Assembly: GCA_003116975.1 (NCBI GenBank) | Contig: BGKB01000131.1 | Location: 124,001-188,000, forward strand | Length of the DNA: 64,000 bases | Reading direction: 5' to 3' | Origin: Aurantiochytrium sp. KH105 | Taxonomy: Eukaryota; Sar; Bigyra; Thraustochytrida; Thraustochytriidae | Shown here: positions 7,076-45,969 of the stretch, in pieces | Layout of the letters: every line of letters starts with the position of its first letter | How positions within the stretch are numbered: the first letter of the stretch is position 1 | Program-made: the position numbers and the translations under genes | Notes under the pieces: generated by a model | What the model saw: the letters and a program-made list of their open reading frames with translations, nothing else | Databases searched by the model: none | Told to the model about the DNA's origin: nothing

Positions 7076-10000
7076 TCAAAAGGCTTCTTCTACGGTATCC
7101 TCATCGACTCCGGCAAGAGTTTTACGGCAATACTCGCCCAGACTGCGGCCCACCGCGGCCGAGGAGATGCCCTTGATCACCGCCTTGAGCACTTCCGGGT
7201 CCGACCGCACTTGCGTCACAGCCAAGAGAGCCTGATCAGCTGCAACGCGCAACTTGGGCTCCTTGGTGGCGGCAAAGATATCTGGGGCCACGCGCGAACC
7301 ATATGCTTTCATCAGCTCCGGGTTCAGGCGCGAAGCACGCTTCAAAGCCTGCATCGCGCCAATGCGAACATCCATGAGCTTGTCCTTGAGACCACTCAAG
7401 AGCCTCTCCACGAGACTGTCGGTGACCTTGGGCGCAGTGTCAGCGCCGACGCTGGCGAGCCAGGCGCCACAGGCATTGAGCGCCTCCTCGCGCAACGTCG
7501 GGTTATCCAGCGAGACGCCATGCGCCCACGTCTCTTCGACAATGTCCTTGAACCAGCCCGGCGCATTCTCGCTTCCCAACAACAGGTCTGTGCAAGACGA
7601 TGCCGCCGCACCCACGAGCAGACACGGCGTGTGAACGCTGGCCCAAGATCCGGCGGACGGTGCCGCATCCTCGCGAAGCGAGTCGACGCGCTTTCGCACG
7701 GCGACCTCAAAAGCCTGCGCGCCCTGCTCAACATGCTTGAGCACACGCGCCAAACAGATGCTCGACTGCTTGCGGATTGCCGCGTGGCGGTTAAAGAGGA
7801 GATTCTCCGACTCCATCTTGCCCGCGCACTTGCCAAGCACGGGCTGCGTTGCCTTGGCGCCCGAGATGAGAAGCACGCCAGAAAGCGCCTCTAGAACCGA
7901 AAGGCGCACGCCGGAGTCCGTCTCGGGCGCCACTGCCGTGTTTCCAAGGTCGTTCACAAGAGGATCCACGCGTGTGCCAATCTTGATGAGCTTTTTCAAG
8001 GCAGCGGTGCCATTGTCCCGCACGCGCGTGTGCTCGCTGTTGAGCGCCTTGACAAAGGTCGTCTGTAACTGCGGGAGAAAAGGGCGCAAGAGAGGCCCTC
8101 CCTTGTCGAGGAGTTTGCTCAGCGTCTGCAAAATTGCGACCTTGACCTGCCAAGGAAAACGATCTCCGACGATACGAATAAGAGGACCCGTAATCTTGAT
8201 GACAAAGGGTCGAAGCGCTGCAGGCGAGGTCAAGTCAACGAGCTCGCCGAGTCCCAGCGCAGCGCTCTCGCGTTGCTCCGCAGAACCGTTCATGAGGGCG
8301 TGCTGGTAGAGAGGCAGCAGCGGCTCGAGACCCTTGGGCAGGCAAAGCCCGGGCAGCACGTAGTTGGCCGCCTCATTTCGATCCTTGAGGCGATACTTGG
8401 CGTCGGAGGCCACGCTCTTGAGCATGCTTCGAATGAAATCGAGCTGGCCCAGAAGGGTATCCTGCGGTGTCGCTTTGATGACGCTAGAAAAGGCCTTCCA
8501 GGACTCGGTGAGAAGGACCTTGTCCTCTTCCATGCTCGAAAAGCGCTTGATGAGCTCCTTGAGAATGGCGGCAAGGTGATCCGAAAAGTCTGCCTCAGTC
8601 GTTGCGCAAAAGGTGCCGAGCATGGCGACCACGACACGCTTCTCCTCTGTCGACTTTGACTCTACGAGGACGTTGAGGAGTCCGGGCACAAGCCAGGCCA
8701 CACGCTCCTCCTCAATGCTTTGCAGCATTGAACACGTGGCGTCCCAGACGTGAGTCATGTCCTCTTCGTGTGCGCCACCGGGGCCGCCCGCGCCCTTGAC
8801 GAGCTCGCGCAAGCAAAATCCCTGAATTTTGTCCACGTAAAAGTGCAGCACAGGCGAAATCGTTTCACACACTGCGCCGAGCGCCTTGGCATGGAACGGC
8901 GTCATGGGCGAGACCAAGAGCTTGGGCAGGAGCAGCGGCATAATCTCGCGACTGCGGAGCGCGAGGATCTTGGTGAGGCCCTCGAGCGCCCGCTCGCCTT
9001 CCTCGTTGTCCAGACCCGAGGCCTCGAGGCTCGTGAGCATGTTAGGAACGATTTCGTTCATTGCCACAGAGCCAACCTGGCGGTAGAGAGCGCCAAAGGC
9101 CTCGGCAGCGGCCTCCTGGACGTCCTCGTCCTCGTCGCTGAGACCGCTTTGCACCGCCGGGAGAAGACGCGGCACGAAGCCTTCGAGCTGCTTTCTGCTC
9201 GCGGCCTCGATAACGGCCAGCAAACCGAGCGCGATACCTGCGCGCGTGTCGGCATCGTCGCTCTTGAAACCATCCTGGATGATGGGAATAATATCGGGGA
9301 GAACGCGCTCTCCGAGCTTGCGCACGATGTCGCCAAGACTACGACCTGCAGCCATGCGCTTGTCATCCGACTCTCCGGACAGCCCGGCGACGATCTTGTC
9401 CATGAGCGGCTTGAGAATCTCCTTGAGCGCGCGACCGGTGTTGACGACGAGGTTCTTCCAGACCTTGAGAGCGCTTTGGCGCACGACGGCCGAACGATCC
9501 GTGCGCATAAGGTACACGGACGCAAGCACATCTTTGCGTTTTTCCTCGCCCAGGGCCTTGCCAAGAGCAGCATCAAAGTTCGCATCCACAACAGCCGTGG
9601 CGCGCCGCAGGGCGTGCTTACCGCCTTGGGCGCCGCCCTGGGCGCTGCCCTTGGTCTCCTCTTCATCCTCGCTGTCCGTCATGTCCGCGTCGTCCTCGTC
9701 GTCAGCCTCTTGGAAGGCCTCGCGCGCTTGACGCGCGGCCGCCACGGCCTCGGCACTTCCGCCGACGCGATACAGGAGATCGCCAAGCAAATGGACGGAG
9801 CTCTGGCGCACGCGCCACTTTTCGTCCTCGAGGCCTTCCTCCAACACAGGCAGGAGCATGTGTGTATGCTCGATCGCATGCTGTTCCACAATAACCTGAC
9901 CGGCGCGCATGGAGACGTCACGCACAAACTCGGACTCGTCCGCGAGGCCGTTGACCACAATGGGCAACTCGCGCGTCACAAACTGCTCGTTCTTCTTAAC

Positions 10001-13000
10001 GCCAAGTACAGGGGGCAGAAACACCATCACCCAAACCACGCCCTCGCGCACCGGAGGGGCGTTTGCGTAGGCCATGGGGAAAACGTTCTCGTTGAGCACG
10101 CGCAGCATGAACTCGTCACCAAGCGCAACAATGACCTCCACAAGACCTTGCGCACCGCCTGATCGCTCCACTGGGGAGGTGTCACTGCGCGAGGTCTCGA
10201 GCAGCCATTGCAGCAAGTTGGCAAAGTCAGGCAGGCCCTCGCCAAGACCGCTGGTGAGGGTGCCCAGGGCCTTTGCAGCAGTCGAGCGGACGCCCGGAAT
10301 GGGGTCCACAAGGACCTTGCGCAGAACAGGCATCAAGTCCTCAACGTAAGGGAGCACAGCTTTGACGTCCGAGATCATCGAGCACATATTGCCCGTGATA
10401 AGAGCTGCCTTCTTCTTTGTCTCGGCGGAGCGCTCGTTGAGTCCACGATCGAGAACAGGCACGATGAGAGCCAGCGATGGGGCATCGACCATATGCACGA
10501 AGCGCGTGCGGTGAAGAGCGTCGACGCACGGGGCTGTCTTGGTGTCTGGGTGTGTGAGCGCGCGCTTGAGGGTTGGCACCAACGCCTGGATCTCCGGGTT
10601 CTGAATCACAGATCCAATGTCCTTGAGCGCCTTGCTGCCCGCAGCGCGCACCTTGGCGTGCGTATCTGTGAGCGAGGAGACAAGCGTCGGGACAACCTGA
10701 GGGAGGGCCGCAGCAAGCTGCTTGCGCGCGCAAAAAGCCATGGATCCCAGCATACGGATCGCGGCTTGCTTGGTGCGCCATGCAGGATCGTCAATGGCTT
10801 TGAGAAGCGTCGGCAGGATGAGCTTGACACCGTGTCCGCTGAGACGCGCCATGATCGCGCGAGAGGCATCTTGCGCCGCGTTGCGCACGGGCTTTTTGGC
10901 ATCAGCAAAGCACTGGAGCAGCGAGGGCAGAACGCCAATCACGTACGGCTCAAAGAGCATGCCGAGAGACGAGCACAAGGCCTCGAGGACCATGAGGCCG
11001 CCCTGTCGGACCTCGGTGTGCGTGGACTTGCACGCGGCCTCAATACGAGGCACCACATTGTTCTTTTTCAGGACAGTGATGCCAAGACCCTTGACGACGC
11101 TTCCGACGCCAAGAGCGGCACCACGGCGCTCGGCGTACGAAGACTTGGCCGCTGCTTCAGTATCAAGAATGAAGGCCGGGCCATCGTCCTCGTCGTCCTC
11201 ATCCTCTCCTTCAGCGCCTGCCTCCTTTTCAGGTGCGGGCGCCACGAGGGTGGCGCGCAGCATAAGCAGGTCGACATATTCGGCGCCACGTTCTTTCACC
11301 TTGGCGGCCTTCATGAGCGGCGGCAAACACTTTGTCGCAGCGAGCTGGACAGCTTCATTTGGGGTTCGCAGAGCTTCCACAAGGCTCTCGGCAATGCGCG
11401 GGATGCGCTCGTCTGTCTTGTCAAGAAACGAGGCGAGCGAGCCAACGAGAATCACTGCGCCTTCGCGCTGCCAGTCCATCTCGGCCTCACCCGACTTTTG
11501 CTTTGCCCCCTTGCCTGATGCCTTGTCCTCGCGCAAGTAGGGCTCGAGCATGGGTAGCAGTTGGTCAATCATGTGCTTGCCGTACGTGCTTACAAGCTGC
11601 ATACCGGATTCCAAAAAGGTTTGGCGCACCAGGCCATCGTTGTCCCGAAGGCCTTGGTCGCAAATGAAGGCAAAGGCGCTCTTGGCCTGGTCTGCACTGA
11701 GCACGCCACCCTCTCCGTCTGAATCGGCGCACGCAAGAAGCGTCGTGGCTACACCCTGGCGCGGTCGCCTGCGCTTTTCCTGTTTGGCAAGCTTCTTTGC
11801 CTCGGCATCTCGGTCAATAAATTTGGGCTTACTGGACGCCTCATTGTCCTCCTCTTGGGCCAAGCGCAACTTTTCCGTGTAGAGAGACACGAGAGCTTCG
11901 ATCGCCTTTTCACCCGTGTCCGGATGCTCCTCGATACCGGCCGCAATCGATTTGGACGCCTGGCGGCGCACATGCGCGTACTCGTGCGAGAGAAGAGCCA
12001 CATAGGGTTCGAGGTAGGTGACAGGGAAGCGGGCCTGGGTCTGCTCGACCAGTTCACGTGCCAGCCCACGCGCCTCTTCATCGTCATCGACGGCAACAAG
12101 CCAGATGCGCGCAACCAGAGAGGCGTGCGCACGCGAGGAAAGACCCTGGGGGGACTTTGCCGCGGCCAAAAGAGCACCGAGCGTAGCACGGCGGACCTCA
12201 GGAGTCTCGGACAAGAGTCCATCTTCGGAGATAACGAGCTCGAAGAGATCTGTATCCATGAGAGGAGGCGGGGCACTGCAGAGACGGCTCATGACGTCTG
12301 CCGGGGAAGGCATGGCTCCGGGGAGCACGAGGCAAGCGCGCAAGAGGGCACGCATGGACTGCAGACGAAGGACATCGACGGCGGCCAGCGTGTTTGCGTG
12401 AAGATTGATGAGCCCAACGGCGCGCTCCACAGAATCCACCGGGGCTTCCATAATGTCCATGTAGCCCTCGTACGGGTTGCTTCGCTTGGTGGGCTTGACG
12501 GCGGCGGCGGGCTCCGATTCGGGACCATTGCCATTCTCGGGTGCTTCAGGCTCGTTCTTGCTGGCCTTGGTTTTCTTCTTATCCTTTTTCTTTTTGTCCT
12601 TGCCATCCTTGTCCTTGCCGTCCTTGTCCTTTTTCTTCTTCGATTTGGGCTTCTTTTCCTTTTCTTCGGCCTTTTCGTCGTCGTCATCATCGTCGGCATC
12701 ATCGTCATCGTCCTCGCCGCTCACCACAAAGGTTGCCCAGAGCACGAGAATCTCAGGATCGAGCGCAAGGCCCACGATGGTGAAGCGCATGACAGGAAAC
12801 AAGAGGTCAAGGAGACCAGCGGTGAGCGGCTGATGGTGGCCATCTTCGGCAAGGCCGCACGCTTCCGTGAAGAGAACGCGGCATGCCTCGCCCAGATGCA
12901 CGAGACAGCCAGGACGTGTGTCCTCGCGAAGTGCCATCTGCAGCGCGAGCGCCAAAAAGTCAGAATTGCGTTGGACCGCCTCATTGGGCCCGGTGGACAG

Positions 13001-16000
13001 GAGCGCGGAGAGAACATCTTGCATGTCATCCAAGACGAGCGGGGCGTTGCTAATGGGGAAACAGGCGTTGGCAAAGACATTCATGTCACGGTGAACAACC
13101 GCGGCAGAAACATCTCTGCAGAGGGCCGCAAGGAGGTCCAAGGCTTGACGCGCTGCCGCGGCAACGGGGGCCATACGCTCGCGAAGCTCGGTCTCGGCCT
13201 GGAGTTCGCGAGCGATGAGTTTTTCGTTAAAACGGTCCTCGAGGCTCGTCGCGGCGCCCTGGGCGCCGGCGCCGGCGGCGCCTTGCTCGGCGGCCTTCTT
13301 TTTTGCCTCGAGTTCCTCGCGAACCTGCATCTCCCAAATTTCATCCTCGGTCATGTAGCGCGTGTCCATCTTTTGCTTTCCAGCTGCGCCGGTCTTGGCT
13401 CCACCGGCGGACGAACCCTTTTTGTCTTTGGCCGAAGTGGCCGCTTCCAGCGCAGCCACACCCACCTCGGAGAGCGTGCCAGACGGCGCAGCGGCCACGA
13501 TACAATCTTGCGAGGAGAATGCGCCCACCGTAGTCGCGTCGAGAGCGCTTGTGATGGCCGGGACGAGTCCTGGAATAGACGCTGCACCCTTTTCGGCATG
13601 GGCCAAGAGCTGAGCAACGGCGGACCGCGCAGCCTCAATGACAGCTTTATTGGTGTTCTTTGGGGAAGAGAGACAGAGATCTTCGACGAGCTGGGTCTGG
13701 ACAGCGGCGCGCAAGCCTTCGTCACGAAGCATGTGCCGTTCTGGTCCCGTGCCGAGGTGCTCCGCGTACAATTTGCGTACCCGGTGCCAGATACGCAAGC
13801 TTCGGGCTGCCGGATGATGGCAGACAATGATGAGTTCAATAAGTGCCTCTGAGGACGGGGCGGCGTCGCTGTCTTTCACAGAAGCCTGCAGAACATGGAC
13901 AATATAGGCCTTGAGTCGTGAGCTTTCGAGCGGCGCCGAGGAAGGAACGCGCGAAAGGTAGACTTGAAGTCCTGCCATAGCAGCGCGCAGCGCACTTCTA
14001 CCATTCAATGAGGCGAAAGCATCACCGGCGACGGTGCGCGCGACGCGACGGACCTTGAAATGCGGACTCAACGCAAGAGATGCCAAGGTCAGCGCCGGGA
14101 TGCTCATTTTGCCTTCAGACGGTCCAAAGCGGTCCGCGCTGTCCGTGAGTACGCTGCGCAGCAGGCGCGCCAAGACGAGCTGCGTCTCGGCGCCGGCGTT
14201 CAATCCGACAACCGAGGAAGCCCATTCCGAAGCGCTTAGGTAGGACGGGATCTGAGCGTCCGGTGGCAGATTCTCGTCCGCATCGTCGTTGATACCAGCA
14301 ATCACGACTGAAGTTCGAGGCGTCCAGGAAACGTTGGCCTGGCGAGCGCTCTTGGCGACGAGTGAGGACCACACCTTTTTCTCGGCCGCAAGCAATGACC
14401 AGGGCTTGAACCCAGTTGATGACTCGAGCTCTGCAATAATGGCCGCTACCTTGGCGTCTACTGTGGCCAATAAAAGTGTTGCTGAAAGCGCATGGATGAG
14501 AATGGCATGGTGCTGCTTGAAGAAGAGCGCTCCTGAGGACAAGTTGTCGCCCACGAGAAGAGTATCGAAGAGTGCACCCACCACACCGTTTCCATTTTTT
14601 GCGCTGCCGACAGAACCTGCGCCGGATGAGGACGCACCGGGCCCAGAAGCTACGGAAGCAGCAGAAGATTTGTTCGCTGACTTTCCTGCGCCAGAAGACG
14701 CCGCGGCGCTCTTCTTCTTCTTGCTGCCTTTTGCACCCATGGCAAGCATTTCAGCTTCGAGGGCGTCGAGATCGCCGCCCTTCTTCTTTTTCTTTTTCGC
14801 CGCAGCAGCGCTTGATCCGGTTGCAGAAGATGAAGCGCCGGCTGCTTTTGCCTTTTTCGAGGCAGAAGTATCTGCGCTAGATGCATCGGTGACCGCCCCG
14901 GAAGAAGAAGAAGAAGCATCGTCGAGCACGCAAACATCATGAGGCCGGGAAGAGTTCTTGGTGGCAAGAACTGCCTTGGCGACTTGTTCTCGCACTGAAG
15001 TGCTCGCCGAAGCGAGAAGAAGTGAGAGCGCACGCACGTGCTCACGCGCCACAGGCGCCGCCTGAAGAACGCCTTTAACCAGGACGGAGACAAAGTCTGC
15101 GTTGGCGGTGGCGGCCTGCGATGCCTGAATCCAGTGCGCGCCTGCAATAAGGGCCTGGCCCAAGAGTGCCGGAGTCTTTTCTGTCTTGACATAGGCTGCA
15201 AGCTGTCCGCATGCAAAGTCGGCCACCTGGGCCGCTTCGTCGGCGTCGGTGACGCCGCCGTCGGAAACACTTTGCGCAAACACATCAATTGCGGAAAGCA
15301 CGGCCGCACGTTGAAAACTCTGCGCTACAGCGGTCTTGCCAAGCGGTCCGGTCCCGTCGAGGGTGGCGCCAAGACTAGAGAGAACAGCAAGCGCCACGGC
15401 CGAGCTCTTGCAGAGCGGGGTGAGAGCGGCCACGGCACTAATGGCAACATTGCGAGCAGCATCGTTGGAGCTGGTGACTGCCTTGCAAATGGGAGCCATG
15501 AGAAAGAGGTCGTCGGCGTAGGGTGAGAGATCTACGTTTGGGGTGTGCTCGAAGAGGGCGGCGACGGCACCGAGCTTTTCCTCGGCGCGAAGATTGAGCG
15601 CGGAAGCGATTTTGGGCTGCATGGTCTCATGAAAGAACTCGGGCGAGGTCTTGTGCAAGAGAGGTGCTGCAACCTCGAGCAGCTCGGATGGGGGCGCGCC
15701 GCGCGACTCGAGAATCGTCTTGACAAGAGGTGCCAAAAGGCGGTCGACCAAAAGGGTGCTCTCCTCGGGGTCCATGGCGAGCGCTACGGAGCTGACGCCG
15801 TAGCCAGCGAGGCTTGCAAGGTCGGAATCGCCAAGATCCTTGATGGCGTCCACGTAAGCGCTTCTGCGGGCAGGATCTGCGAGCTTGAGTTTAGAGACGG
15901 CGCGAGCGAGGGCGCGTTTTGACACCGTCGTGCGACCGAGCATCCCGAGCAGCTCAAGCTGTCTGCGCAGCAGCTTGGGAGGCGCTTCATCGAGCGACCC

Positions 16001-16300
16001 CGGTGCGCACGCCACTGCCAGTCGAAAGGTGGCATGGATCGACCTGCTCGAGATCGCGCGGCCCGACACGGGGAGCTCGACGACCTTGTCGCCGAGCTCG
16101 CGACGGAGGTCTGGGTTTCGTTGCAGCTCATTGGCGACATATTTAGCCGCGGCCGCATTCAGAGACCCTTCGAGAGCGCCGTGCGCGAGGGTCTTTGCGC
16201 CCTCCGCAAGACCTTGGGCCTCGCTGGTCTCTTGAAGCGCTGCGCTCAGGCCGTCTTGGCTCGGCGTGGCGCTGGCCAGCCAATCCTGCACGGCGCTCAT
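7076..16300 (-). CDS. GCN1: GCN1, HEAT-repeat activator of the eIF2alpha kinase GCN2
   Basis: A single uninterrupted frame encodes 3074 residues, against about 2670 in human and yeast. It is built almost wholly of HEAT repeats. Residues about 1710-1900 (for example KLILPTLLKAIDDPAWRTK, MLGSMAFCARKQLAAALP, TAPCVDALHRTRFVHMVDA) match the highly conserved eEF3-like centre of GCN1. The RWD-binding HEAT region lies C-terminal to this. In the family, GCN1 binds ribosomes, in particular collided ones, and delivers the uncharged-tRNA signal to GCN2 in the cytosol. Three low-complexity inserts account for much of the extra length: Ser/Ala/Lys-rich at about 458-570, Asp-run then Lys-rich at about 1195-1253, and a short acidic stretch near 1700. 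PheRS alpha lies just upstream on the same strand. Identification is firm; repeat boundaries are approximate. Confidence 0.96.
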   Translation of the reverse strand: MSAVQDWLASATPSQDGLSAALQETSEAQGLAEGAKTLAHGALEGSLNAAAAKYVANELQRNPDLRRELGDKVVELPVSGRAISSRSIHATFRLAVACAPGSLDEAPPKLLRRQLELLGMLGRTTVSKRALARAVSKLKLADPARRSAYVDAIKDLGDSDLASLAGYGVSSVALAMDPEESTLLVDRLLAPLVKTILESRGAPPSELLEVAAPLLHKTSPEFFHETMQPKIASALNLRAEEKLGAVAALFEHTPNVDLSPYADDLFLMAPICKAVTSSNDAARNVAISAVAALTPLCKSSAVALAVLSSLGATLDGTGPLGKTAVAQSFQRAAVLSAIDVFAQSVSDGGVTDADEAAQVADFACGQLAAYVKTEKTPALLGQALIAGAHWIQASQAATANADFVSVLVKGVLQAAPVAREHVRALSLLLASASTSVREQVAKAVLATKNSSRPHDVCVLDDASSSSSGAVTDASSADTSASKKAKAAGASSSATGSSAAAAKKKKKKGGDLDALEAEMLAMGAKGSKKKKSAAASSGAGKSANKSSAASVASGPGASSSGAGSVGSAKNGNGVVGALFDTLLVGDNLSSGALFFKQHHAILIHALSATLLLATVDAKVAAIIAELESSTGFKPWSLLAAEKKVWSSLVAKSARQANVSWTPRTSVVIAGINDDADENLPPDAQIPSYLSASEWASSVVGLNAGAETQLVLARLLRSVLTDSADRFGPSEGKMSIPALTLASLALSPHFKVRRVARTVAGDAFASLNGRSALRAAMAGLQVYLSRVPSSAPLESSRLKAYIVHVLQASVKDSDAAPSSEALIELIIVCHHPAARSLRIWHRVRKLYAEHLGTGPERHMLRDEGLRAAVQTQLVEDLCLSSPKNTNKAVIEAARSAVAQLLAHAEKGAASIPGLVPAITSALDATTVGAFSSQDCIVAAAPSGTLSEVGVAALEAATSAKDKKGSSAGGAKTGAAGKQKMDTRYMTEDEIWEMQVREELEAKKKAAEQGAAGAGAQGAATSLEDRFNEKLIARELQAETELRERMAPVAAAARQALDLLAALCRDVSAAVVHRDMNVFANACFPISNAPLVLDDMQDVLSALLSTGPNEAVQRNSDFLALALQMALREDTRPGCLVHLGEACRVLFTEACGLAEDGHHQPLTAGLLDLLFPVMRFTIVGLALDPEILVLWATFVVSGEDDDDDADDDDDDEKAEEKEKKPKSKKKKDKDGKDKDGKDKKKKDKKKTKASKNEPEAPENGNGPESEPAAAVKPTKRSNPYEGYMDIMEAPVDSVERAVGLINLHANTLAAVDVLRLQSMRALLRACLVLPGAMPSPADVMSRLCSAPPPLMDTDLFELVISEDGLLSETPEVRRATLGALLAAAKSPQGLSSRAHASLVARIWLVAVDDDEEARGLARELVEQTQARFPVTYLEPYVALLSHEYAHVRRQASKSIAAGIEEHPDTGEKAIEALVSLYTEKLRLAQEEDNEASSKPKFIDRDAEAKKLAKQEKRRRPRQGVATTLLACADSDGEGGVLSADQAKSAFAFICDQGLRDNDGLVRQTFLESGMQLVSTYGKHMIDQLLPMLEPYLREDKASGKGAKQKSGEAEMDWQREGAVILVGSLASFLDKTDERIPRIAESLVEALRTPNEAVQLAATKCLPPLMKAAKVKERGAEYVDLLMLRATLVAPAPEKEAGAEGEDEDDEDDGPAFILDTEAAAKSSYAERRGAALGVGSVVKGLGITVLKKNNVVPRIEAACKSTHTEVRQGGLMVLEALCSSLGMLFEPYVIGVLPSLLQCFADAKKPVRNAAQDASRAIMARLSGHGVKLILPTLLKAIDDPAWRTKQAAIRMLGSMAFCARKQLAAALPQVVPTLVSSLTDTHAKVRAAGSKALKDIGSVIQNPEIQALVPTLKRALTHPDTKTAPCVDALHRTRFVHMVDAPSLALIVPVLDRGLNERSAETKKKAALITGNMCSMISDVKAVLPYVEDLMPVLRKVLVDPIPGVRSTAAKALGTLTSGLGEGLPDFANLLQWLLETSRSDTSPVERSGGAQGLVEVIVALGDEFMLRVLNENVFPMAYANAPPVREGVVWVMVFLPPVLGVKKNEQFVTRELPIVVNGLADESEFVRDVSMRAGQVIVEQHAIEHTHMLLPVLEEGLEDEKWRVRQSSVHLLGDLLYRVGGSAEAVAAARQAREAFQEADDEDDADMTDSEDEEETKGSAQGGAQGGKHALRRATAVVDANFDAALGKALGEEKRKDVLASVYLMRTDRSAVVRQSALKVWKNLVVNTGRALKEILKPLMDKIVAGLSGESDDKRMAAGRSLGDIVRKLGERVLPDIIPIIQDGFKSDDADTRAGIALGLLAVIEAASRKQLEGFVPRLLPAVQSGLSDEDEDVQEAAAEAFGALYRQVGSVAMNEIVPNMLTSLEASGLDNEEGERALEGLTKILALRSREIMPLLLPKLLVSPMTPFHAKALGAVCETISPVLHFYVDKIQGFCLRELVKGAGGPGGAHEEDMTHVWDATCSMLQSIEEERVAWLVPGLLNVLVESKSTEEKRVVVAMLGTFCATTEADFSDHLAAILKELIKRFSSMEEDKVLLTESWKAFSSVIKATPQDTLLGQLDFIRSMLKSVASDAKYRLKDRNEAANYVLPGLCLPKGLEPLLPLYQHALMNGSAEQRESAALGLGELVDLTSPAALRPFVIKITGPLIRIVGDRFPWQVKVAILQTLSKLLDKGGPLLRPFLPQLQTTFVKALNSEHTRVRDNGTAALKKLIKIGTRVDPLVNDLGNTAVAPETDSGVRLSVLEALSGVLLISGAKATQPVLGKCAGKMESENLLFNRHAAIRKQSSICLARVLKHVEQGAQAFEVAVRKRVDSLREDAAPSAGSWASVHTPCLLVGAAASSCTDLLLGSENAPGWFKDIVEETWAHGVSLDNPTLREEALNACGAWLASVGADTAPKVTDSLVERLLSGLKDKLMDVRIGAMQALKRASRLNPELMKAYGSRVAPDIFAATKEPKLRVAADQALLAVTQVRSDPEVLKAVIKGISSAAVGRSLGEYCRKTLAGVDEDTVEEAF

Positions 16301-24144: not shown

Positions 24145-27100
24145 TTACATTGTTGAAGAAAAAAAGTGGGCAAGTCTGGATCGAGGTGCAGGATTGTTCT
24201 TCTGATGAAGCTCCTCGCGGAGCATCTGGATGCGGTCCGAGAATACGAGAGACTTACTCTTGGTGTCATACTCGACAAGACAGCGAATTGCATCCTCGTA
24301 GCCCTGCGCGGAGCGAAAGAGCTCCGAGGCATCCAAGATGCAAGTCTTCGCATCCGATTTCTCACCCGCAGTCCAAAACATGTTACTCGCCATCTCAAAC
24401 ATCATGGGCGCAGCATCGCGACGGTCGTCAGAACATACATACGCCGAAGCCAAACCATGGATAGCGCGCGCTTCCACGAGCCCGAGTCCGAGCTCGCGAG
24501 CCTCACGGGCCACGCGCTCAAAGATACCAATGGCTATGTCCAAGCGCTCTGCAGAAGATGCCTGGCCGGCTTCCTGACTCATGTCCTCCTCCTCGAGCAG
24601 CGTCAATCCGCGCACAACCAGCTGTCGTAGCTGGGCTTCCTTCTCTTGATCTGATCCGACCTCGTCGCCACCCTGGTTTGCCAAGAGACGCACCAGGTCC
24701 GACTTTTCCGCGCAGCCCGACATGTCGAGACCCAGACGGTGGCACTCGGCCCGCAAGTCCGCAATGGAACGTGTCAGCAGAATCTTTTCCTTTTCCTCGG
24801 TATGTGCGCTTTCAGCTGCTGTCGCCTTGTCCAATGTTGGCGCTTGCAGCTGCTTGAGATTTCCAATGAGCTCTTCGCGCGTCATTTCAGGCGTTGTGCG
24901 AAATCCATTTGCCTCGCATACTGCGCACAACTGGCCCATATCAAGCTTGGCGAAATCCTCGTCCGTCGGGTTATTGCCAAGGATGGCACGCGCGCTCGGT
25001 GCGCGTTTGATCAGTGTCTGCAGCCTCTTGGCCTCGCGACTTCCCTTGTTCAGCCCATTGACCCAGGTCACCGTCTCCGACATGGACAGAGCTCGAAACA
25101 CATAGGTGCGTGCCTGCGTCACCACCTGGAACTCGTATCGGCCCGATTCTGTCACCGTTGAGCCCTCGTCATCCACTTGAGATTTTACAAGAACAAGCGA
25201 AATTCCGTCCGCGGCGATGCGCACCGGCAACTTGCTCAATACCTCGATGCGCAAAATCTGGTCCAAGAAGATGCGTCCCTTCATGGGTGAGTTGTGCGAC
25301 TTGTGCCACGAGAGTGCCAGCTTCCACACGTTCGCCTGAACATCCAGCGCCTTATGAACAAGAAACCAGCGCCGCTGCCATACATATGCCGCCGAAGGAC
25401 TCTTCTTTTCCAGATATCCGTGGAGGTCAATGTCGCGAATGTCTTCAGTCATGTCGAGCTTTTCGTGACGATTCTGCTTACGCGCCAGCACAGCCTCATC
25501 GGAGATATCAAGCGAAACATTGTTCAAGAGCTTGTCTGCCCGAGCTTGTGTCTCGCTGTCCACGCTGCCGGCGCTGCTCTTGCTCGCCCCCATCCGCGTG
25601 CCATTTGCGGTCTTTCCCACGGTTCCCCGCGGGCTTGTCCCATCCTTGGCCTCCGACATCTCGCCTTCGCGGATCTTCGATGCTGCCGACGACGGACTTG
25701 GATTTCCGGCAGCTGTGGGCACTGCCTTGCTCGCGGCCGCCGGCGCTGTCGCAGGAGCTCTCGATGCGCTCTCAGTCGTCACTGTGCGCGTCGACGCCGA
25801 CCGCTTTGTCACCTTGGGCCACACACGCGCGTAAATGGCCGAACCTTCACGGTGTACCTGCTTCGCTTCCTCGAGTTTCTGCATGAATTCCGCCTCGCGC
25901 ATGCTCGAAGTGATGGCATGCACGATTTCGCCTGCTTGAGCCGCCGAGACGTCTTCGCGCAGACCCAGGCAGGCAATCGCTGTGGCGATGACGGCGCGCT
26001 GGCCCGTTTTTGACCACTCAATTGACATTTTGGATACAGCAGATGCAAAGAACTCTGGCGATACCGCCAAGAGGTCGAGGATATTATTCCACAAGAGCAT
26101 TTCAACGCCAAGTAGCTTTTCTGCGTTGTTGGTGAAGAGCCCCAAGGTGCGCATCATACCTTCCTTGTCCGCGCGAATGTGAAAGACGTCGTCCAAAGAA
26201 ATCTTTTGCCGCCCCATGATGCCATCCATACGCGGTGTCGAAGTGTAGCTCACCCGCTCCGGCAACACCGTGTCCACCCAGGCATTCGGGTTTGTACGGA
26301 CAGGGGAGAGATCCAAAAGAGAGGCGCAGTACGTGACGCAAATGTCGCGCGTGAGCAAACGCAGCAACTTCTTAAAGTATGGCAAAATGAGAAACGCCTT
26401 GATGTCCCCCAGATAGTCTTGTACCGTCGCCGCAACCCGGACCATAATATTTCCAGCAAGGTCATGGGGTCCGACGCGAAGGTGCGCGGGCGAAAACAGC
26501 TTGCCATAAAAGTCCTCGCAATCAGCATGAATCATATCCAGCGTGATTTGCACAAAGGAGACCACCGCCTGGCTGTACTTGCTGCGCACCGGGTTCCAAT
26601 CAACGTTCAGCGAGGCGTTCCCGAGGCCCATACGTCCGCTATCGAGATCATCAATGTGGTCCTGAATCGTCGCGCAATCGTTGGTGATGGCGCACATGAA
26701 ACGTAGATCCGTCATGAGCGTCCTGCCGCGCTCGGTTTCATGCAGCTCGTTGCGAAAGGTGGTAATGTAGTCAGCCACCGTCACAAGACAGCATTGCATC
26801 ACGGCCACCTGGACCTGCGGCACACCGCTTGCTTTGGCCATGATGAGCGTCTCGTTGATCATGTTAAACATGTCGACGGGCGCGCTCGTGGCCAGCTCAG
26901 ATTGGCCGCGCCGAATGACTTCAACGCAATCTTCGCCCCGCGTGAGATTCGTGCGGATAATGTTCTCCACCCACGTTCCAAGGGATTCTTGCAGCTCTAC
27001 CAGATACCGCGCGGCCATCATGTCAATATTATCCTCCATGGTAAAGGGGGGCAGCGTATCCGCCAGGTTCTTACAGCGTTCATCCTGCAGAATCCGATCT

Positions 27101-28869
27101 CGGAACTCAGAGTACGCCGAGATCAAATCCATGATCCGCAGCATGTCGTGAATCGTAAGCGACTCGTACCGATCGCCCACCAGAAACACGCTGACCTCGT
27201 GCTCAAAACGGACCTGGTAGGCGCGCATATAAAGAGTCATGACGTCGACGCGATCGTGCTCGCCGAGGCAGACGGTGGCAAGCTCGTCAAGCTCCTCGAC
27301 CATGCGGGTCGCGGCAGACAAGGTGTCCTCGAGGCTGGAGACCTTGGCGAATTTACTGTCCAGGTTCGTCTCGAGCCTTTGCACGCGTGAGGCCTCGTCA
27401 ACGAGATCCCAAAAGACAATCCAGTCTGGTAGCTTTGGACCCGCCATGACTGAGTCATGGCCCTCGCCGCTCGCAAGGGATCGTGCAGAGTCGCCTGCTG
27501 CTTTGGCAGTTGTCTTTGCAATTTCCTCTTGTCTGCGCTCCTCCATGGCGGCGCAGTGGTGCTCGAGCTCGGCGACCCAGTCCTTCATGATTTGTTCCGA
27601 CTCGGCCTTGAATTCAAAAGTACGAAAGGGCGTGACAATGTGGAAGACTGCAGGATCGTCGCTAGGGGCAGGGAGGAAGCTTGTACCTTTGCTCAGAATG
27701 ATCTGACCCTGAAAATCGCCCCATGATTGCTTCTCGCTCTTGTAATAGTACAGACTGCCTTCGATGATGCGGCAGAAGCGAGACTGCCAGGCCTTGAAGC
27801 GACTCGGAGACTTTTTCAGCAGCGAGCCGTCTTTGACACAGGATTCCTGCGCGCGTTCCTCCCACTCAATATCGCGCGCTTTGACGGCCGTCTGCTTTTT
27901 CCTACTCAGTCGCTTGGTTTTAGAGGCGTCGCTTCCACCGCTCTCGGATTCGGGGTGTGATTCCGCATCAGAATTACCCGACTTCTGCGACGACGCAGAC
28001 AGGGTGCGTCTCAAGCTCATGCGTTTTTGAGGCGCTGCGTTGCGGGTAGATCCAGACTCACTCGAACTTTCTTCCTTGGTCGTGCCCACGGCAGCTGCCA
28101 ACACCGACTGCACATTTGGGTGCCGCGGCGGAATTACGCTCCCTGACCCGGTCCCGGGGCTCGAAGGCGACTCGGGGCCAGCCTTGGCTGACTCGTCTTT
28201 ACCCTTGGATGAAGCGGGAGCCTCTTTGGGCGAAGGCGGGCTCGACGGCGATGTGAAGGATCGCGTCAAGATTGATCTCGTCTTTGACGCGGGCTTGGCG
28301 ACCTCATTTTCCTTTCCCGAGGGCGGCGCATCACTGTCCGTCTTGGCGCGACTGCTTGTCGTGCGAATGGGCGCGACTTTGACATCCACAGGTGGTGCGG
28401 CCATTGGCGAGGCGGGTTCGGCTTCGTCGGTCATGGACGAGATCATGTCAGCGCCGACGCCATCCTCAAAGTACTCTTGGCGTTCCTTGAGACAGCGTAC
28501 CCAATTGGTGGCCTCGGCGACCGACTTGGCTTTGAGGTAGACGTCGCCGCTTTTGAGCGGGATCACGAATTCGCCAAATCTGCCTTCCACATAGGGTTCA
28601 TCTGTCAAATCTGTCAAGTCGCAGCTCGCGCGAAGCTTGTGCATCTTGCGGTCCAGAAAGTAGTTCAAGTACTGGTTGTTCACGATAAAGTAGCGCTTCT
28701 GCCATGACCCACGGCTGTTACGCTTCATCAGATAGCCTTGGAGAAGCTCCAGGTTGGTCCGGTCGGTGCCCAGCACCGCCCGGGAGTCCACCTCCGTGCC
28801 CTTGTGCATGGTTGACTTGCTTAATTTTTGCTTCGTCCGCAACGATGCTCCTCGCACCGCCGCCGCCAC
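24145..28869 (-). CDS. PH-PH-Sec6(exocyst)-PH-HEH-TPR multidomain protein
   Basis: One frame encodes 1574 residues. PH domain 1 is at about 44-136 (LQGYLMKRNSRGSWQKRYF ... NWVRCL), PH 2 at about 343-455 (DGSLLKKSPSRFKAWQSRF ... DWVAELEHH) and PH 3 at about 1146-1280 (LHGYLEKKSPSAAYVWQRRW ... TWVNGLNK). Residues about 493-985 are all-helical and resemble exocyst Sec6/EXOC3 (LGTWVENIIRT, APVDMFNMINETL, VAATVQDYLGDIKAFLILPY). A MUN/Munc13-type CATCHR fold is the main alternative. Two short helix-extended-loop-helix (SAP-like) segments follow at about 1295-1390 (LRAECHRLGLDMSG), then TPR-like helices to the end. Sec6 is a core subunit of the complex tethering secretory vesicles to the plasma membrane. 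The PH domains would add phosphoinositide binding (inference). Linkers at about 150-340 and 1010-1130 are Ser/Pro-rich. Confidence 0.75.
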   Translation of the reverse strand: MAAAVRGASLRTKQKLSKSTMHKGTEVDSRAVLGTDRTNLELLQGYLMKRNSRGSWQKRYFIVNNQYLNYFLDRKMHKLRASCDLTDLTDEPYVEGRFGEFVIPLKSGDVYLKAKSVAEATNWVRCLKERQEYFEDGVGADMISSMTDEAEPASPMAAPPVDVKVAPIRTTSSRAKTDSDAPPSGKENEVAKPASKTRSILTRSFTSPSSPPSPKEAPASSKGKDESAKAGPESPSSPGTGSGSVIPPRHPNVQSVLAAAVGTTKEESSSESGSTRNAAPQKRMSLRRTLSASSQKSGNSDAESHPESESGGSDASKTKRLSRKKQTAVKARDIEWEERAQESCVKDGSLLKKSPSRFKAWQSRFCRIIEGSLYYYKSEKQSWGDFQGQIILSKGTSFLPAPSDDPAVFHIVTPFRTFEFKAESEQIMKDWVAELEHHCAAMEERRQEEIAKTTAKAAGDSARSLASGEGHDSVMAGPKLPDWIVFWDLVDEASRVQRLETNLDSKFAKVSSLEDTLSAATRMVEELDELATVCLGEHDRVDVMTLYMRAYQVRFEHEVSVFLVGDRYESLTIHDMLRIMDLISAYSEFRDRILQDERCKNLADTLPPFTMEDNIDMMAARYLVELQESLGTWVENIIRTNLTRGEDCVEVIRRGQSELATSAPVDMFNMINETLIMAKASGVPQVQVAVMQCCLVTVADYITTFRNELHETERGRTLMTDLRFMCAITNDCATIQDHIDDLDSGRMGLGNASLNVDWNPVRSKYSQAVVSFVQITLDMIHADCEDFYGKLFSPAHLRVGPHDLAGNIMVRVAATVQDYLGDIKAFLILPYFKKLLRLLTRDICVTYCASLLDLSPVRTNPNAWVDTVLPERVSYTSTPRMDGIMGRQKISLDDVFHIRADKEGMMRTLGLFTNNAEKLLGVEMLLWNNILDLLAVSPEFFASAVSKMSIEWSKTGQRAVIATAIACLGLREDVSAAQAGEIVHAITSSMREAEFMQKLEEAKQVHREGSAIYARVWPKVTKRSASTRTVTTESASRAPATAPAAASKAVPTAAGNPSPSSAASKIREGEMSEAKDGTSPRGTVGKTANGTRMGASKSSAGSVDSETQARADKLLNNVSLDISDEAVLARKQNRHEKLDMTEDIRDIDLHGYLEKKSPSAAYVWQRRWFLVHKALDVQANVWKLALSWHKSHNSPMKGRIFLDQILRIEVLSKLPVRIAADGISLVLVKSQVDDEGSTVTESGRYEFQVVTQARTYVFRALSMSETVTWVNGLNKGSREAKRLQTLIKRAPSARAILGNNPTDEDFAKLDMGQLCAVCEANGFRTTPEMTREELIGNLKQLQAPTLDKATAAESAHTEEKEKILLTRSIADLRAECHRLGLDMSGCAEKSDLVRLLANQGGDEVGSDQEKEAQLRQLVVRGLTLLEEEDMSQEAGQASSAERLDIAIGIFERVAREARELGLGLVEARAIHGLASAYVCSDDRRDAAPMMFEMASNMFWTAGEKSDAKTCILDASELFRSAQGYEDAIRCLVEYDTKSKSLVFSDRIQMLREELHQKNNPAPRSRLAHFFSSTM

Positions 28870-30219
28870 AGCGGCTTCGTCTGCGCTCCGGTATTGCTTG
28901 CCACCTTGATCCCTTCTTGCTCGCTGTCGCTTGCGTGCGTTTGCAGGTACTACTTTGCTGAGCTAAGCAGAGCAGAGCTTAAGAGAGCAGAGCAGAGAGT
29001 AGAGCAGAGCAGAGCAGAGCAGAGCTGAGCAGAGCTGAGCTGCGCGAGCGAGCGAGCGATCGAGAGATCGAGCTGAGCTGAGCTGAGCTGAGCTGCACGC
29101 ACGCAAGGTTCAGGACCTTGGGCCTCGCGCGCTTGCTGCTCGTACTCTGTCAGCTTCTCTCTCGCCCGCAAGAGACCGCTCGCTCGACCGCTCGCTCTGA
29201 CAAGCCGAGCAGCCTGGCTCGCCCGGGTATCCGGCGTCCCCCGGCCCGCGCGCGAGGACTCCAGCCAGCGGCCGGGTTGCTTGGTCTCTCCGCTGCGGCG
29301 CGCCGCGGCCATGCACGCCCCGCGAATGCAGATGTGGTTTTGGGTGTCTGGATGTGGTTTCAAACGAGGCTTGGATCCAGCCCGACAGCGCCGCGCGCGA
29401 CCGCGCGACCGGGCGGGCGGGCGTCTGCAAGCAGCGGCGAGCCGCGCAGCCCGGGCCTCGCCTGGCCGGCCTCGCCTGGCCTCGCCTCGCGCGGCGGCCG
29501 CTGCGCAGACTGGAGTGGAGCGGAGCGGCGTGGAGTGGAGCAAGTGGATTTGCGCGTCTGACTGACACTGCGAGTCTAGCACTGCGTTCGTAGTTGGTGC
29601 ACTTGCGCCGGCACATTGTCGGCTTTCGAGGCAGGAGTTTCACTTGCGCGTTTCCGAACTTTCACTTGTGCGCCGTTGCACAAGCCGAAGTCCCGCCGGC
29701 CCAAAAGGTTGACCCTTGCAAGGGTCGGTTTATTTACGATAGGCCTTTTTCAGCCTTGTCAGAGGCCAACGGATACATGCATGCGAGGTCGAAGTCGAGG
29801 TCTTCAACGCGTGCACGCGCTGCGCAAGAGATGGACAGGAGAAATACACACGCATACACAGAGATAGAGGAAGGGAGAGAGTATAGACAAGGCTTAGAGT
29901 AGAGGCCGCTGTGGCTGGACTGGTCGGACTGTGAGGACGATAACGTCTACTCGTAGCGGTTCGATTTCTTGTTGATTTGGACTTTCATTTTCGTTTGCTG
30001 GCCGGCCGGCGCCTTGCGCAGGCGGCGCCTGGCCTGCACCGCGGAACGAGGAGGAGGCGAGACGTGTGACAAGGTCGCGTCTCCGTCTCTCTCTCTCTCT
30101 CTCTCTCTCTTTCGTATACACGTATACACTCTCGCGTTCGCGTTAGCGTCGTCACCGGACCCTCGTCAGGAGCTGTCTGCGCAAGGGCGCGAAGAGCAGA
30201 CGATTACAACGCAGCTTTC
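28870..30219. promoter_or_regulatory. Divergent intergenic region, Sec6-like / EF-hand-ARM genes
   Basis: This 1.35-kb head-to-head spacer contains AGAGC pentamer arrays at about 28966-29040, then GAGCTGAGCT repeats to 29092, and a GC-rich block (29200-29530) rich in GGCCTCGCC. A pure (CT)n tract at 30085-30111 and a doubled CGTATACA motif (30113-30128) sit about 90-135 bp before the ATG at 30220. No gene is convincing. Confidence 0.5.
30085..30111 (+). repeat. (CT)n homopyrimidine tract just upstream of a start codon
   Basis: About thirteen CT dinucleotides in the presumed promoter or 5' UTR of the plus-strand gene starting at 30220. Such tracts can act as GAGA/CT core-promoter elements in other eukaryotes; function here is unproven. 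Confidence 0.8.
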
Positions 30220-35815: not shown

Positions 35816-36600
35816 TGAGAGCGGCTTGCCCGCCTCGCCGGACTTGCATGGCTGCTTCTAGTTTTGTGTTTGCATGCCAAGGATACCTGAGCGCGGCGGT
35901 AGCAGACTCGGATAAGAAGTCCACGCGAAGAGTTCATGTGATTGCAACAAACCAAGTGCCGTGCTGCACCGGAGCGACGAAAACGGCCGAAGGACGTTCG
36001 ACTGAGCAAGGTCTGACGCACGCCACGCTGTGACGCTTGGATGCACAAGACTAAGTCTTTGCAGAGGTCGCACTCTGACCCGCCCAGTGGGATGGGACGG
36101 CCACGTTCGTGTACGAAAAGCCTCCATCTCCTCATTTTGTTCAGAACGCTCCACAAACTGACGACATTTTCCTGCCTGCCTGCCGGCTATTCCAGCTCGC
36201 CGCACCGGCAAAGAAAGAGAAGCGAGACGAGCAAAATCTAATGGCAGCGCGACAAGACTTGTGCACGCACTTCGCCTCAACGTGATAGTAGGCCTTTGTC
36301 CTTGTCGCCAACATGTATGCACACCTTGGTCCGACTCTGGGTCCGATGAAGTTCGCACACCCTGCATAGCTAGTTATTGAATTAGATGCAAGGCCACAAG
36401 ACACGGGGGAGATGAAACCACTTCGCCTTCCCCCCTCAGGGACAGAACACCCCTCGTACATAAGGCAGAAAGAGCAGACCCGCTTTGAGACGACAGGCGC
36501 GCGACGCGGCGAGCGCGCGGCAGCTGACGAGGAGCTGCTCGGCCCGGCCTCGTGCCTCTGCCTGCCCCCCCGCTCCCCCCCCCGCCCCCCCCCCTCCCCC

Positions 36601-36625
36601 NNNNNNNNNNNNNNNNNNNNNNNNN
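36601..36625. other. Assembly gap (25 N) within a poly-C tract
   Basis: Twenty-five Ns flanked by long cytosine runs (36569-36600 and about 36634-36680). The homopolymer is the likely reason assembly failed; the true gap length is unknown. Frames reading through it should not be trusted. Confidence 0.97.
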
Positions 36626-36734
36626 CCTCTGCCCGCCCCCCCCCTCCCCCCCCCCCCCCCCCCCCTCCCCCTCCCCCCCCTTGCTCGAGGCCGCGCGTGC
36701 AGGACCAGGGGCCGAGTACGTACCGTGCACGAAG

Positions 36735-36783
36735 ACGTCCACGTCCACGTCCACGTCCCCGCCAACGTCTACGTCCACGTCCC
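36735..36783 (+). repeat. ACGTCC hexamer array upstream of the PqiA-like start
   Basis: Five or six ACGTCC/ACGTCT units with one CCGCCA interruption end about 42 bp before the ATG at 36825. Each unit holds an ACGT core like bZIP target sites. It is in the presumed 5' UTR or proximal promoter. Confidence 0.6.
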
Positions 36784-36824
36784 GAGCTCAAGTTCACGTT
36801 TACGTGGACTACCCGACGGGCAGA

Positions 36825-38681
36825 ATGGAGAACGTGGACCTCAATTCGAAGCACTCGCTGCATCATGTGTACCCGCAGCGCGTGAGCATTGTGACGCTGC
36901 TGTTCTTGCTGGGCAATGTCGGGCTGCAAATTTACTCGCATGTTGGCTTGAGTGCCGTGGTGCTGTCGAACCAGAACCCAGGGGAAAGCGACTCTTTTTC
37001 GGGGATCGCAGAATCCGGAGCCGCTGTCAATGACACAGAGTTTCAGATTTACTTTTGCGAGACGGGCCAGTACAATTACCCTGACGTCATGGAGGAATGT
37101 GTTTTTAGCTTTTCCGCGGCGAGTCTGCGAACGTGTCTGCGCGAACAGGGTGTTGAGGGCACTGATGACACCGTAGACTGTCTAGGCGTTGCTACTTCTT
37201 GCGTGCGCAACACTTGCGGAGGAATATGCGCCTGCGTCAGATATCCAACAGAGGGCGCAGAGTGCGATGAGGAAGCATGCAACTCGTGCGTGTCCGACGA
37301 CTGCATTGCCCCGCTCGAGGTGTGCTGGGGCGTCTCGGTAGATGCTTTCGAGGACACTGATTGCTCGACGATCGGCACCGAGACGGAGCGGCGTGTGTTG
37401 GATGAATTTGAAGCCTCTGAGAGCCGCGCACTCGCCGACGAACCTGAAGATGGTCTGTACGTGGTCTACGAGGTGAGCTTTATCTCGTCGGTCAAGGATG
37501 CGATCAACGGAGAAGCTTATGGCATTGCGGTGGTCATTCTGATTTGCTCAGGCATCTGGCCTTATACAAAGAACATCATCATGTTTGTGGCATGGTTCGT
37601 GCCCATGACAGCCGCCACCCGAAGCTCGATCCTCAAGAACTTGACGCGCCTGGCCAAGTGGTCCATGGTGGATGTTTTTGCCGTAGTCATTATCGTGTGC
37701 GGCGTGCGTATCGAGAAAACGATCGGAGCGGGCGAACTCGTGGTGCTTGCGGAGCCGCGCATTGCCATCGTAACTTTTGCAATCGCAGCAGTTTGGGATT
37801 TGGTCCAAGGCGAGTATATGCGTGCCAAGCATCTCGAGCTGCTGGAGCGCTGCTCGGACCAAGCCCCAGGCACGAACTCCAACAAAGCCCTGGTGAAATC
37901 GCTGCGCTTCTCACTCGAAGGCTCGTACGATGCAACGTGCAGCCTCTTTGGCAAGTTGTTCTGGTTCATGTGGTGCTTTGCCCAAGTGGGTCTCGCCTTT
38001 GCTGGTGTCGCAGTGCCGTGCATGTCGTTTTCCATTACGGGTTTGGCTGCCTCTCTCGAAGGCACGAACGGTTACGAGTACTCCGCAGGCAACATCTTTT
38101 CCACATTGGTGTCGCAAGAGCGCCTCGACTTGATGCGTGAGCCAGGAATGAGCGTGGTGCTCATGATTTTCTATCTTGTTATGGTCTTTCTCGTGCCTAT
38201 TGCGCAATACATTGTAATCGCGGTGGCATCTTTTGTGGGCTGGAACAAGCCTCTGGCCACGGCCACGGACATTGTGGGTGGTTTCGCATGCCTCGACGTC
38301 TTTGTCCTCTCCTTTGGCGTCGTCATTGCGGAGTGGGATATGTTCATCAACAAGGCCATCGGCACTCAAGCTCAGGATCTCTGTCCCACGGACGACGTTG
38401 TCTGCCTCGGTATGCAGTCCGAGATTCTCGTGGGCTTTTATCTCCTCGTCGTTGCCGTCATCCTTGGCTGGGTAAGCGAAATCTTTTTCACATATGGATT
38501 TGCTCAGGCCTTTCATCCCGTCGAGCACATTTGGATTGCGGACGTTCTCTTTGGCAAGCCGGCGACAGCATGTCTCACAAAGGCCGCGGCATTGCCAGAC
38601 GCTGAGAATCAAGGGCCCGATGTGCCTCCGACCGCAAAGGTTGCCGAAATCCCTGTCGCTTCGACCGCAACCATGAACTAG
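36825..38681 (+). CDS. Eukaryotic PqiA-like integral membrane protein with Cys-rich loop
   Basis: From ATG 36825 (MENVDLNSKHSLHH) the protein has 618 residues. The frame stays open upstream through proline-rich sequence across the assembly gap, which I exclude. A first membrane helix at about 18-40 is followed by a soluble Cys-rich loop (about 80-200, fourteen Cys, for example SCVRNTCGGICACV), probably disulphide-bonded in an extracytosolic space. Two modules then resemble bacterial PqiA: GIWPYTKNIIMFVAWFVP ... AKWSMVDVFAVVIIVCGVRI (about 243-297) and GGFACLDVFVLSFGVVIAEW (about 485-505). Each lies among several hydrophobic helices, ending in a short polar tail. In E. coli PqiA works with the MCE protein PqiB in transport between inner and outer membranes; the substrate here is unknown. 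It is convergent with eEF3. Confidence 0.85.
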   Translation: MENVDLNSKHSLHHVYPQRVSIVTLLFLLGNVGLQIYSHVGLSAVVLSNQNPGESDSFSGIAESGAAVNDTEFQIYFCETGQYNYPDVMEECVFSFSAASLRTCLREQGVEGTDDTVDCLGVATSCVRNTCGGICACVRYPTEGAECDEEACNSCVSDDCIAPLEVCWGVSVDAFEDTDCSTIGTETERRVLDEFEASESRALADEPEDGLYVVYEVSFISSVKDAINGEAYGIAVVILICSGIWPYTKNIIMFVAWFVPMTAATRSSILKNLTRLAKWSMVDVFAVVIIVCGVRIEKTIGAGELVVLAEPRIAIVTFAIAAVWDLVQGEYMRAKHLELLERCSDQAPGTNSNKALVKSLRFSLEGSYDATCSLFGKLFWFMWCFAQVGLAFAGVAVPCMSFSITGLAASLEGTNGYEYSAGNIFSTLVSQERLDLMREPGMSVVLMIFYLVMVFLVPIAQYIVIAVASFVGWNKPLATATDIVGGFACLDVFVLSFGVVIAEWDMFINKAIGTQAQDLCPTDDVVCLGMQSEILVGFYLLVVAVILGWVSEIFFTYGFAQAFHPVEHIWIADVLFGKPATACLTKAAALPDAENQGPDVPPTAKVAEIPVASTATMN

Positions 38682-45910: not shown

Positions 45911-45969
45911 CTCCTCTCCTCTCCTCTCCTCTCCTCTCCTCTCCTCTCCTCTCCTCTCCTCTCCTCTCC
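45911..45969 (+). repeat. (CTCCT)n homopyrimidine array upstream of the histidine kinase
   Basis: About twelve CTCCT pentamers, ending some 155 bp before the ATG at 46126. The tract is a perfect polypurine/polypyrimidine sequence capable in principle of triplex (H-DNA) formation. Confidence 0.9.

Follow-up and report, generated by a model that had tools for sequence, protein, structure and literature searches.

A PH domain-Sec6 fusion protein encoded in addition to an ordinary Sec6 in the thraustochytrid Aurantiochytrium sp. KH105

Aurantiochytrium sp. KH105 encodes a protein of most likely 1554 residues in which three predicted PH domains share a chain with a Sec6-type core. A single minus-strand frame, without interruption, carries the order PH-PH-Sec6-PH-HEH/SAP-like-TPR-like (Table 1). 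The fusion is a real gene under constraint, because all 1554 codons are kept without an indel in both of its copies and dN/dS between them is 0.062. By sequence, the protein is an extra, divergent Sec6 paralogue that stands beside the ordinary Sec6 of the same genome. The original prediction had placed three PH domains and a Sec6-like core in one frame, and Pfam bears this out (three PH stretches, 118.1 bits; Sec6, 68.7 bits). It had further supposed that lipid-binding modules were moved onto the organism's Sec6. That part of the proposal is not supported: lipid binding was not simply moved onto Sec6, because the genome holds a separate, PH-less and better-scoring Sec6 (95.4 bits) together with matches to the other seven exocyst subunits.

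Gene structure and constraint

The window, the whole stretch of DNA analysed here, comprises 64 kb (positions 124001-188000) of contig C131 (BGKB01000131.1) of Aurantiochytrium sp. KH105, whose assembly amounts to 76 Mb in 367 contigs. The frame predicted at 24145-28869 on the minus strand is indeed open, with 1574 codons from a GTG at 28869, and upstream it stays open to a stop at 28963-28965. The start, by contrast, is probably a different one. The first ATG of the frame lies at 28809, has an A at -3 and gives a product of 1554 amino acids. It is most likely the translation start, because the 50 aligned codons upstream of it contain two gaps relative to the second copy and show a dN/dS of 0.44 (on only 7 changes) against 0.062 downstream. 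Residue numbers nevertheless follow the frame counted from GTG 28869.

The second copy of the gene lies on contig C20 (locus L005), where 1554 codons are again open from the ATG without an indel. Pfam gives it the same domain architecture, with 119.7 bits for PH and 69.5 bits for Sec6. Of the changes between the two copies, 86.5 are synonymous and 18.5 non-synonymous (dS 0.084, dN 0.0052), and the substitutions at codon positions 1/2/3 number 14/6/85 (P about 1.5e-23). Several segments hold only a few changes, and the segmental dN/dS values are to be read with this in mind: 0.0 for PH1, 0.13 for the first linker, 0.04 for PH2 and 0.025 for the Sec6 core in the N-terminal half, and 0.14 for the second linker, 0.08 for PH3, 0.0 for the HEH region and 0.05 for the TPR block in the C-terminal half. 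An excess of third-position changes is found in 8 of 9 separately tested segments (P<0.05, uncorrected), including every named domain, PH1 having 3 changes only. The lone segment without a significant excess is the 40-residue linker 441-480 (P 0.32).

Duplication is not peculiar to this gene. Both PfaD-type genes and the best match to each exocyst family are likewise present twice, on different contigs. PfaD-type genes encode PUFA synthase subunits in thraustochytrids (Labyrinthulomycetes); here the PfaD-type domain is found in two different genes, each with two copies (710.6 and 682.3 bits). The pattern of duplicate copies, with dS 0.084 for the PH-Sec6 gene, is as in a diploid with two diverged haplotypes, or as in a hybrid. 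The two copies of a Vps52-type gene (L010/L011, contigs C35/C161) differ in length, with 1180 and only 853 open codons; the frame of L011 is split, perhaps through a frameshift or an error of assembly.

Several other genes can be recognized in the window. One (7076-16300, minus strand) is an unbroken frame of 3074 amino acids with GCN1-type HEAT domains. A PqiA (paraquat-inducible protein A) domain, of a family known mainly from bacteria, is matched with 33.4 bits at 36552-38681 on the plus strand. One plus-strand frame at 45598-48495 combines histidine-kinase-type ATPase and response-regulator domains, and another at 50911-52041, with a pair of EF-hands ahead of an RGS domain, possibly encodes a calcium-controlled G-protein regulator. 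On the minus strand, a RabGAP-TBC protein (48821-49792) and a TLDc-domain protein (52791-55586) are encoded. ARAGORN found no tRNA in the 64-kb window.

Table 1. Features of the PH-Sec6 gene, in window positions; residues are numbered from GTG 28869
Feature	Position	Strand	Remarks
Whole CDS	24145..28809	-	1554 codons and stop TAA from likely ATG; indel-free in second copy
PH domain 1 (PH1)	28480..28752	-	About residues 40-130; PF00169, PH_8 at 50-129
PH domain 2 (PH2)	27553..27837	-	Residues 345-439; best PF00169 stretch
Sec6-family helical core, as delimited here	25690..27429	-	Residues 481-1060
Pfam Sec6 PF06046 match	26317..27240	-	Residues 544-851, profile 137-443 of 537
PH domain 3 (PH3)	25045..25434	-	About residues 1146-1275; third PF00169 stretch; borders by eye
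First HEH/SAP-like helix-turn-helix	24835..24972	-	Residues 1300-1345; by eye, sequence only
Second HEH/SAP-like motif	24664..24780	-	Residues 1364-1402; GCAEKSDLV
TPR-like/alpha-SNAP-like helical block	24190..24636	-	Residues 1412-1560

Domains of the fusion protein

Searched with the whole protein, the Pfam PH family (PF00169) is matched in three stretches well above its curated cut-off (118.1 bits, E 3e-34; cut-off 25.1). The closest PDB sequences are ORP11 (E 1.7e-4) and DAPP1 (E 8.8e-4) for PH1, and SKAP55 (1u5d, E 1.6e-5) and centaurin-delta 1 (E 2.1e-5) for PH2. PH3, whose start DLHGYLEKK..WQRRWF was read from the sequence, has an additional sub-threshold PH_6 match at 1236-1274; it is longer than PH1 and PH2 and probably carries an insert. 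The canonical phosphoinositide motif of PH domains is K-x(n)-[KR]-x-R. By eye, all three domains have W-Q-x-R and lack the basic residue right after W, an arrangement that we take to be like that of PI4P-binding PH domains of the FAPP/CERT type. Naming a lipid ligand from this motif was considered and rejected, the motif evidence being too weak. Many PH domains do not bind lipid; the three predicted here may do so.

The Sec6 family is matched by the core with 68.7 bits against a cut-off of 29.7, and when the core is searched alone Sec6 (71.1 bits) is the sole family over threshold. The other families listed up to E 10, namely XPD_arch, Spectrin_Dys-1 and DLIC, each remain well under their own cut-offs. 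Both borders of the core, residues 481-543 and 861-1060, are drawn where there is no significant match. Comparison with the genome's own Sec6 gives a blastp match at residues 659-822 (E 2.8e-6, 23.9% identity), and a Smith-Waterman score of 97 that none of 300 shuffles reached (mean 42.4, maximum 69). By contrast, alignment of thin profiles of the two proteins by hhalign gives a probability of only 7.5%, with an E-value of 0.0047. Identity is 23-24%, the forced alignment included. Homology with the own-genome Sec6 is thereby demonstrated pairwise for about residues 659-860 only; residues 440-660 and 862-1075 align with it no better than shuffles (460/1000 and 434/1000 as good, respectively). 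The likely Sec6 homology of residues 544-658 is based on the Pfam match, and that of 861-1060 on position and the forced alignment.

Searches of the PDB with phmmer returned only a ribosomal protein for the core (E 1.3, listed up to E 10), and 19 sequences with 0 exocyst chains for the own-genome Sec6 (up to E 1), the best of which hit an acidic stretch. As the core and the own-genome Sec6 both lack an exocyst match, phmmer against the PDB is too weak to argue for or against Sec6. Overall, sequence comparison favours Sec6 over Munc13 for the core, which would then adopt a CATCHR fold.

The N-terminal side of the core deserves separate attention. According to passages of PMC11555703, every exocyst subunit contributes a CorEx helix, 67-115 residues long, at its N-terminus, and passages of another source place the binding of Sec9 and Sec1 at N-terminal sites of Sec6 (PMC3849599). 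In the fusion protein, the stretch from PH2 to the Sec6 match is only 104 residues long, and about 60 of these look helical by eye. The best alignment of residues 440-560 with the N-terminal 230 residues of the own-genome Sec6 is equalled by 43 of 1000 shuffles. The sequence thus appears to leave little room for a CorEx helix, and a short CorEx-like helix may be present at 481-543.

The C-terminal blocks are less clear-cut. The TPR-like block of the original prediction is present in the frame, but its family matches stay below their curated cut-offs (TPR_12, 16.0 of 30.1 bits, E 0.014; SNAP, 16.7 of 25 bits, E 0.0052). Likewise, the HEH label finds a sub-threshold SAP match (12.1 bits, E 0.16) and a motif that a second protein of the genome also carries, but the curated cut-off of 23.9 bits is missed. 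The two HEH-like motifs show no pairwise likeness beyond that of shuffles (588/1000 as good). The shared motif, GCxEKxDL, recurs in a 348-codon frame (L043/L045, contigs C23/C45) which by eye has the look of an acyl-protein thioesterase/carboxylesterase. An alpha-SNAP sequence in the PDB is matched by the C-terminus locally, over some 50 residues, with an E-value of 0.008 for the whole sequence and 0.43 for the best stretch by itself, and the PH-Sec6 locus is absent from the 92 SNAP matches found in the genome at E<=1. An alpha-SNAP identity was therefore rejected, the match being local and under the Pfam cut-off, and serves as no more than a lead. Elsewhere in the same genome, a 380-codon frame is similar in part to the TPR block.

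The separate Sec6 and the other exocyst subunits

A separate, ordinary Sec6, which the original prediction proposed to look for in related genomes, was found in the same genome. Four places, from 8 candidates scored, match the Sec6 family: the two copies of the PH-Sec6 gene and two copies of another gene (contigs C49 and C90). The latter scores 95.4 bits, above the 68.7 bits of the PH-Sec6 protein, has no PH match up to E 1, and encodes 1031 amino acids from an ATG on C49, with 1031 open codons on C90. When the core is used as query, its own two copies are followed by the C49/C90 pair (E 0.07 and 0.18), and the last of the 5 matches from 7 candidates is a chance-level hit in a 4943-codon frame (E 0.98). 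The PH-Sec6 protein is neither the sole nor the best Sec6 of the genome; these searches treated each frame separately and scored only the best candidates, and a third Sec6 of still greater divergence would escape them.

The remaining seven exocyst subunits, namely Sec3, an Exo84-like protein, Exo70, Sec8, Sec15, Sec5 and Sec10, are all matched, with two copies each. In passages of PMC11555703, all eight subunits are said to tend to be retained across eukaryotes. Sec3 is matched by its coiled coil (63.6 bits) and by Sec3_C-term (32.1 bits). The assignment of the Exo84-like protein is weak: Exo84_C is sub-threshold (28.0 of 32 bits), and VPS51_Exo84_N, matched with 29.0 bits against a cut-off of 24.2, is a family common to Exo84, Vps51 and COG1. 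Neither Sec3 nor the Exo84-like protein (L030 and L031, on contigs C50 and C57) has a Pfam PH or Sec3-PIP2_bind match up to E 10. For Sec3 this may reflect limited sensitivity of Pfam, and its N-terminus, by eye, looks like the Sec3 PH-like domain. For T. brucei, too, passages of PMC11555703 report that no PH domain is predicted on Exo84.

The idea of a second, PH-bearing exocyst set was considered on the strength of two Sec5-type genes, and was rejected after Pfam searches and identification by eye. One gene (C11/C18) matches Sec5 only, with no PH match at an E-value of 0.01 or below. The second gene (C78/C169) has a further match, to VPS51_Exo84_N, and was identified by eye as the Vps51 of GARP. 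Side matches of Sec3_CC and Sec8_N were likewise set aside, being Vps52, Vps54, Vps53 and coiled-coil proteins where Pfam names them. In stramenopiles, a limited number of expansions has been described, mainly of Sec3, Sec5 and Sec6 (PMC6784791, section 6), so the presence of a further Sec6 is not in itself novel. PH domains in the exocyst are described on Sec3 and Exo84 only, as far as the passages of the same source go (PMC6784791).

Proposed role and relation to known systems

On balance, we lean towards a protein that would be anchored to lipid and, as a single chain, would tether vesicles or handle SNAREs, working beside the ordinary exocyst and not inside it. The two N-terminal PH domains, together with PH3 after the core, would hold the protein at a membrane marked by phosphoinositides. 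Contact with SNAREs, a GTPase or the exocyst would fall to the Sec6-type helical rod, and cargo or a partner protein would be brought in by the HEH/SAP-like and TPR-like blocks at the C-terminus. Partner binding, the marked membrane and independence from the octamer are all inferred here. Action as one chain seems most likely because the PH domains occupy the place of the CorEx and N-terminal region, and the Sec6 match follows PH2 at a distance of only 104 residues.

Alternatively, the protein could replace the ordinary Sec6 in some octamers, for instance at a special membrane, and thereby equip them with PH domains. Its core is of the Sec6 family by Pfam and blastp, and stramenopile expansions principally concern Sec3, Sec5 and Sec6 (PMC6784791, section 6). 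Moreover, the lack of a Pfam PH match up to E 10 in Sec3 and the Exo84-like protein might mean that lipid contacts come partly from PH-Sec6. However, a Sec3 N-terminus that is PH-like by eye suggests that Pfam may miss the Sec3 PH domain. The little room for CorEx, the absence of a clear alignment with the N-terminal part of the own-genome Sec6 (43/1000 shuffles as good) and the identity of only 23-24% to that Sec6 also weigh against an alternative subunit, which we regard as unlikely. At the far end of the scale, an artefact or broken gene, with adjoining genes read as one frame, is scarcely credible, given that both copies run through 1554 codons with neither a stop nor an indel and that every named domain shows the third-position excess.

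Two further readings draw on proteins outside the exocyst. The original prediction had offered a Munc13/MUN-type tether as its alternative, and the core could be a MUN domain in a Munc13/CAPS-type priming factor, the PH domains playing the role of the CAPS PH domain. A profile built from the four Sec6-type segments of the genome gave, as its sole PDB matches up to E 1, four Munc13-1 (unc-13 homolog A) entries, and the Munc13-1 MUN domain and Sec6 are structurally alike according to passages of PMC3849599. Yet these matches are non-significant (E 0.13-0.30), and since the profile included the ordinary Sec6 they may reflect a general Sec6-MUN kinship. In Pfam, on the other hand, the score for Sec6 is 68.7-71.1 bits, and neither a MUN nor a C2 family is listed up to E 10. 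This alternative is thus quite improbable. The remaining reading, an M-Sec-like factor that shapes membrane extensions such as the ectoplasmic net instead of tethering vesicles, has only a slim chance of being right. Thraustochytrids do make ectoplasmic nets, and M-Sec has a similar plan, with a Sec6-like rod and a phosphoinositide-binding N-terminus (passages of PMC5024327). Against it, the main text of one paper on candidate net proteins contains none of the terms 'PH domain', 'pleckstrin' and 'Sec6' (PMC12221091).

The single-chain tether, which we prefer, can be taken further, in a form that is admittedly a long shot: a labyrinthulomycete tether/SNARE machine in which three PH domains would act in coincidence detection, the Sec6 rod would work off the octamer and an alpha-SNAP-like tail would act on SNARE bundles, at a secretory site peculiar to the lineage, for instance the bothrosome and its ectoplasmic net. 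If true, it would be an independent counterpart of CAPS, derived from an exocyst subunit. A Sec6 paralogue with three PH domains of its own would imply that a CATCHR rod can be removed from the octamer and remade as a one-chain, membrane-reading tether, as in CAPS, and it would provide a handle on lineage-specific secretion in thraustochytrids, the builders of ectoplasmic nets. No description of a PH-Sec6 fusion was found among the papers listed in literature searches, as judged by titles and abstract openings, nor in the passages of PMC6784791 (including section 6), PMC11555703, PMC5024327, PMC3849599, PMC12221091 and PMC5091641. The contig collections scanned for relatives of the full protein are viral and prokaryotic, and the 0 relatives there (3 and 21 pattern-matching stretches, respectively, none confirmed) say nothing about other eukaryotes.

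Compared with known systems, the protein shares features with several. Sec3 and Exo84 are exocyst subunits described with PH domains (passages of PMC6784791), whereas the core of the fusion protein is Sec6-type and has neither a Sec3 nor an Exo84 family among its Pfam matches up to E 10. With Sec6/EXOC3 it shares a core over the PF06046 cut-off and partial homology to the own-genome Sec6, but it differs in its three PH domains, its HEH/SAP-like and TPR-like blocks and its little room for CorEx. In CAPS, one chain carries both a PH domain, which binds PIP2, and a Sec6-like CATCHR region (MHD1), which binds SNAREs (passages of PMC3849599). The fusion protein differs from CAPS/Munc13 in that its PH domains flank the core and that MUN and C2 are not among its matches up to E 10. 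As with the M-Sec-like paralogues, an extra Sec6-family gene exists beside the ordinary Sec6 (2 genes here, two copies each). The EXOC3L proteins, like M-Sec/TNFAIP2, are vertebrate Sec6 paralogues that also occur beside ordinary Sec6. M-Sec/TNFAIP2, according to passages of PMC5024327, is similar in sequence to Sec6 and binds PI(4,5)P2 via its N-terminus and RalA via its C-terminus, the N-terminal phosphoinositide-binding part having its parallel here in the predicted PH domains. M-Sec, however, uses a polybasic stretch and was solved in a near-full-length form of residues 67-650 (PMC5024327), whereas the fusion protein has PH domains and 1554 residues. By anatomy, it resembles CAPS or M-Sec/TNFAIP2 more closely than it does a subunit of the octamer.
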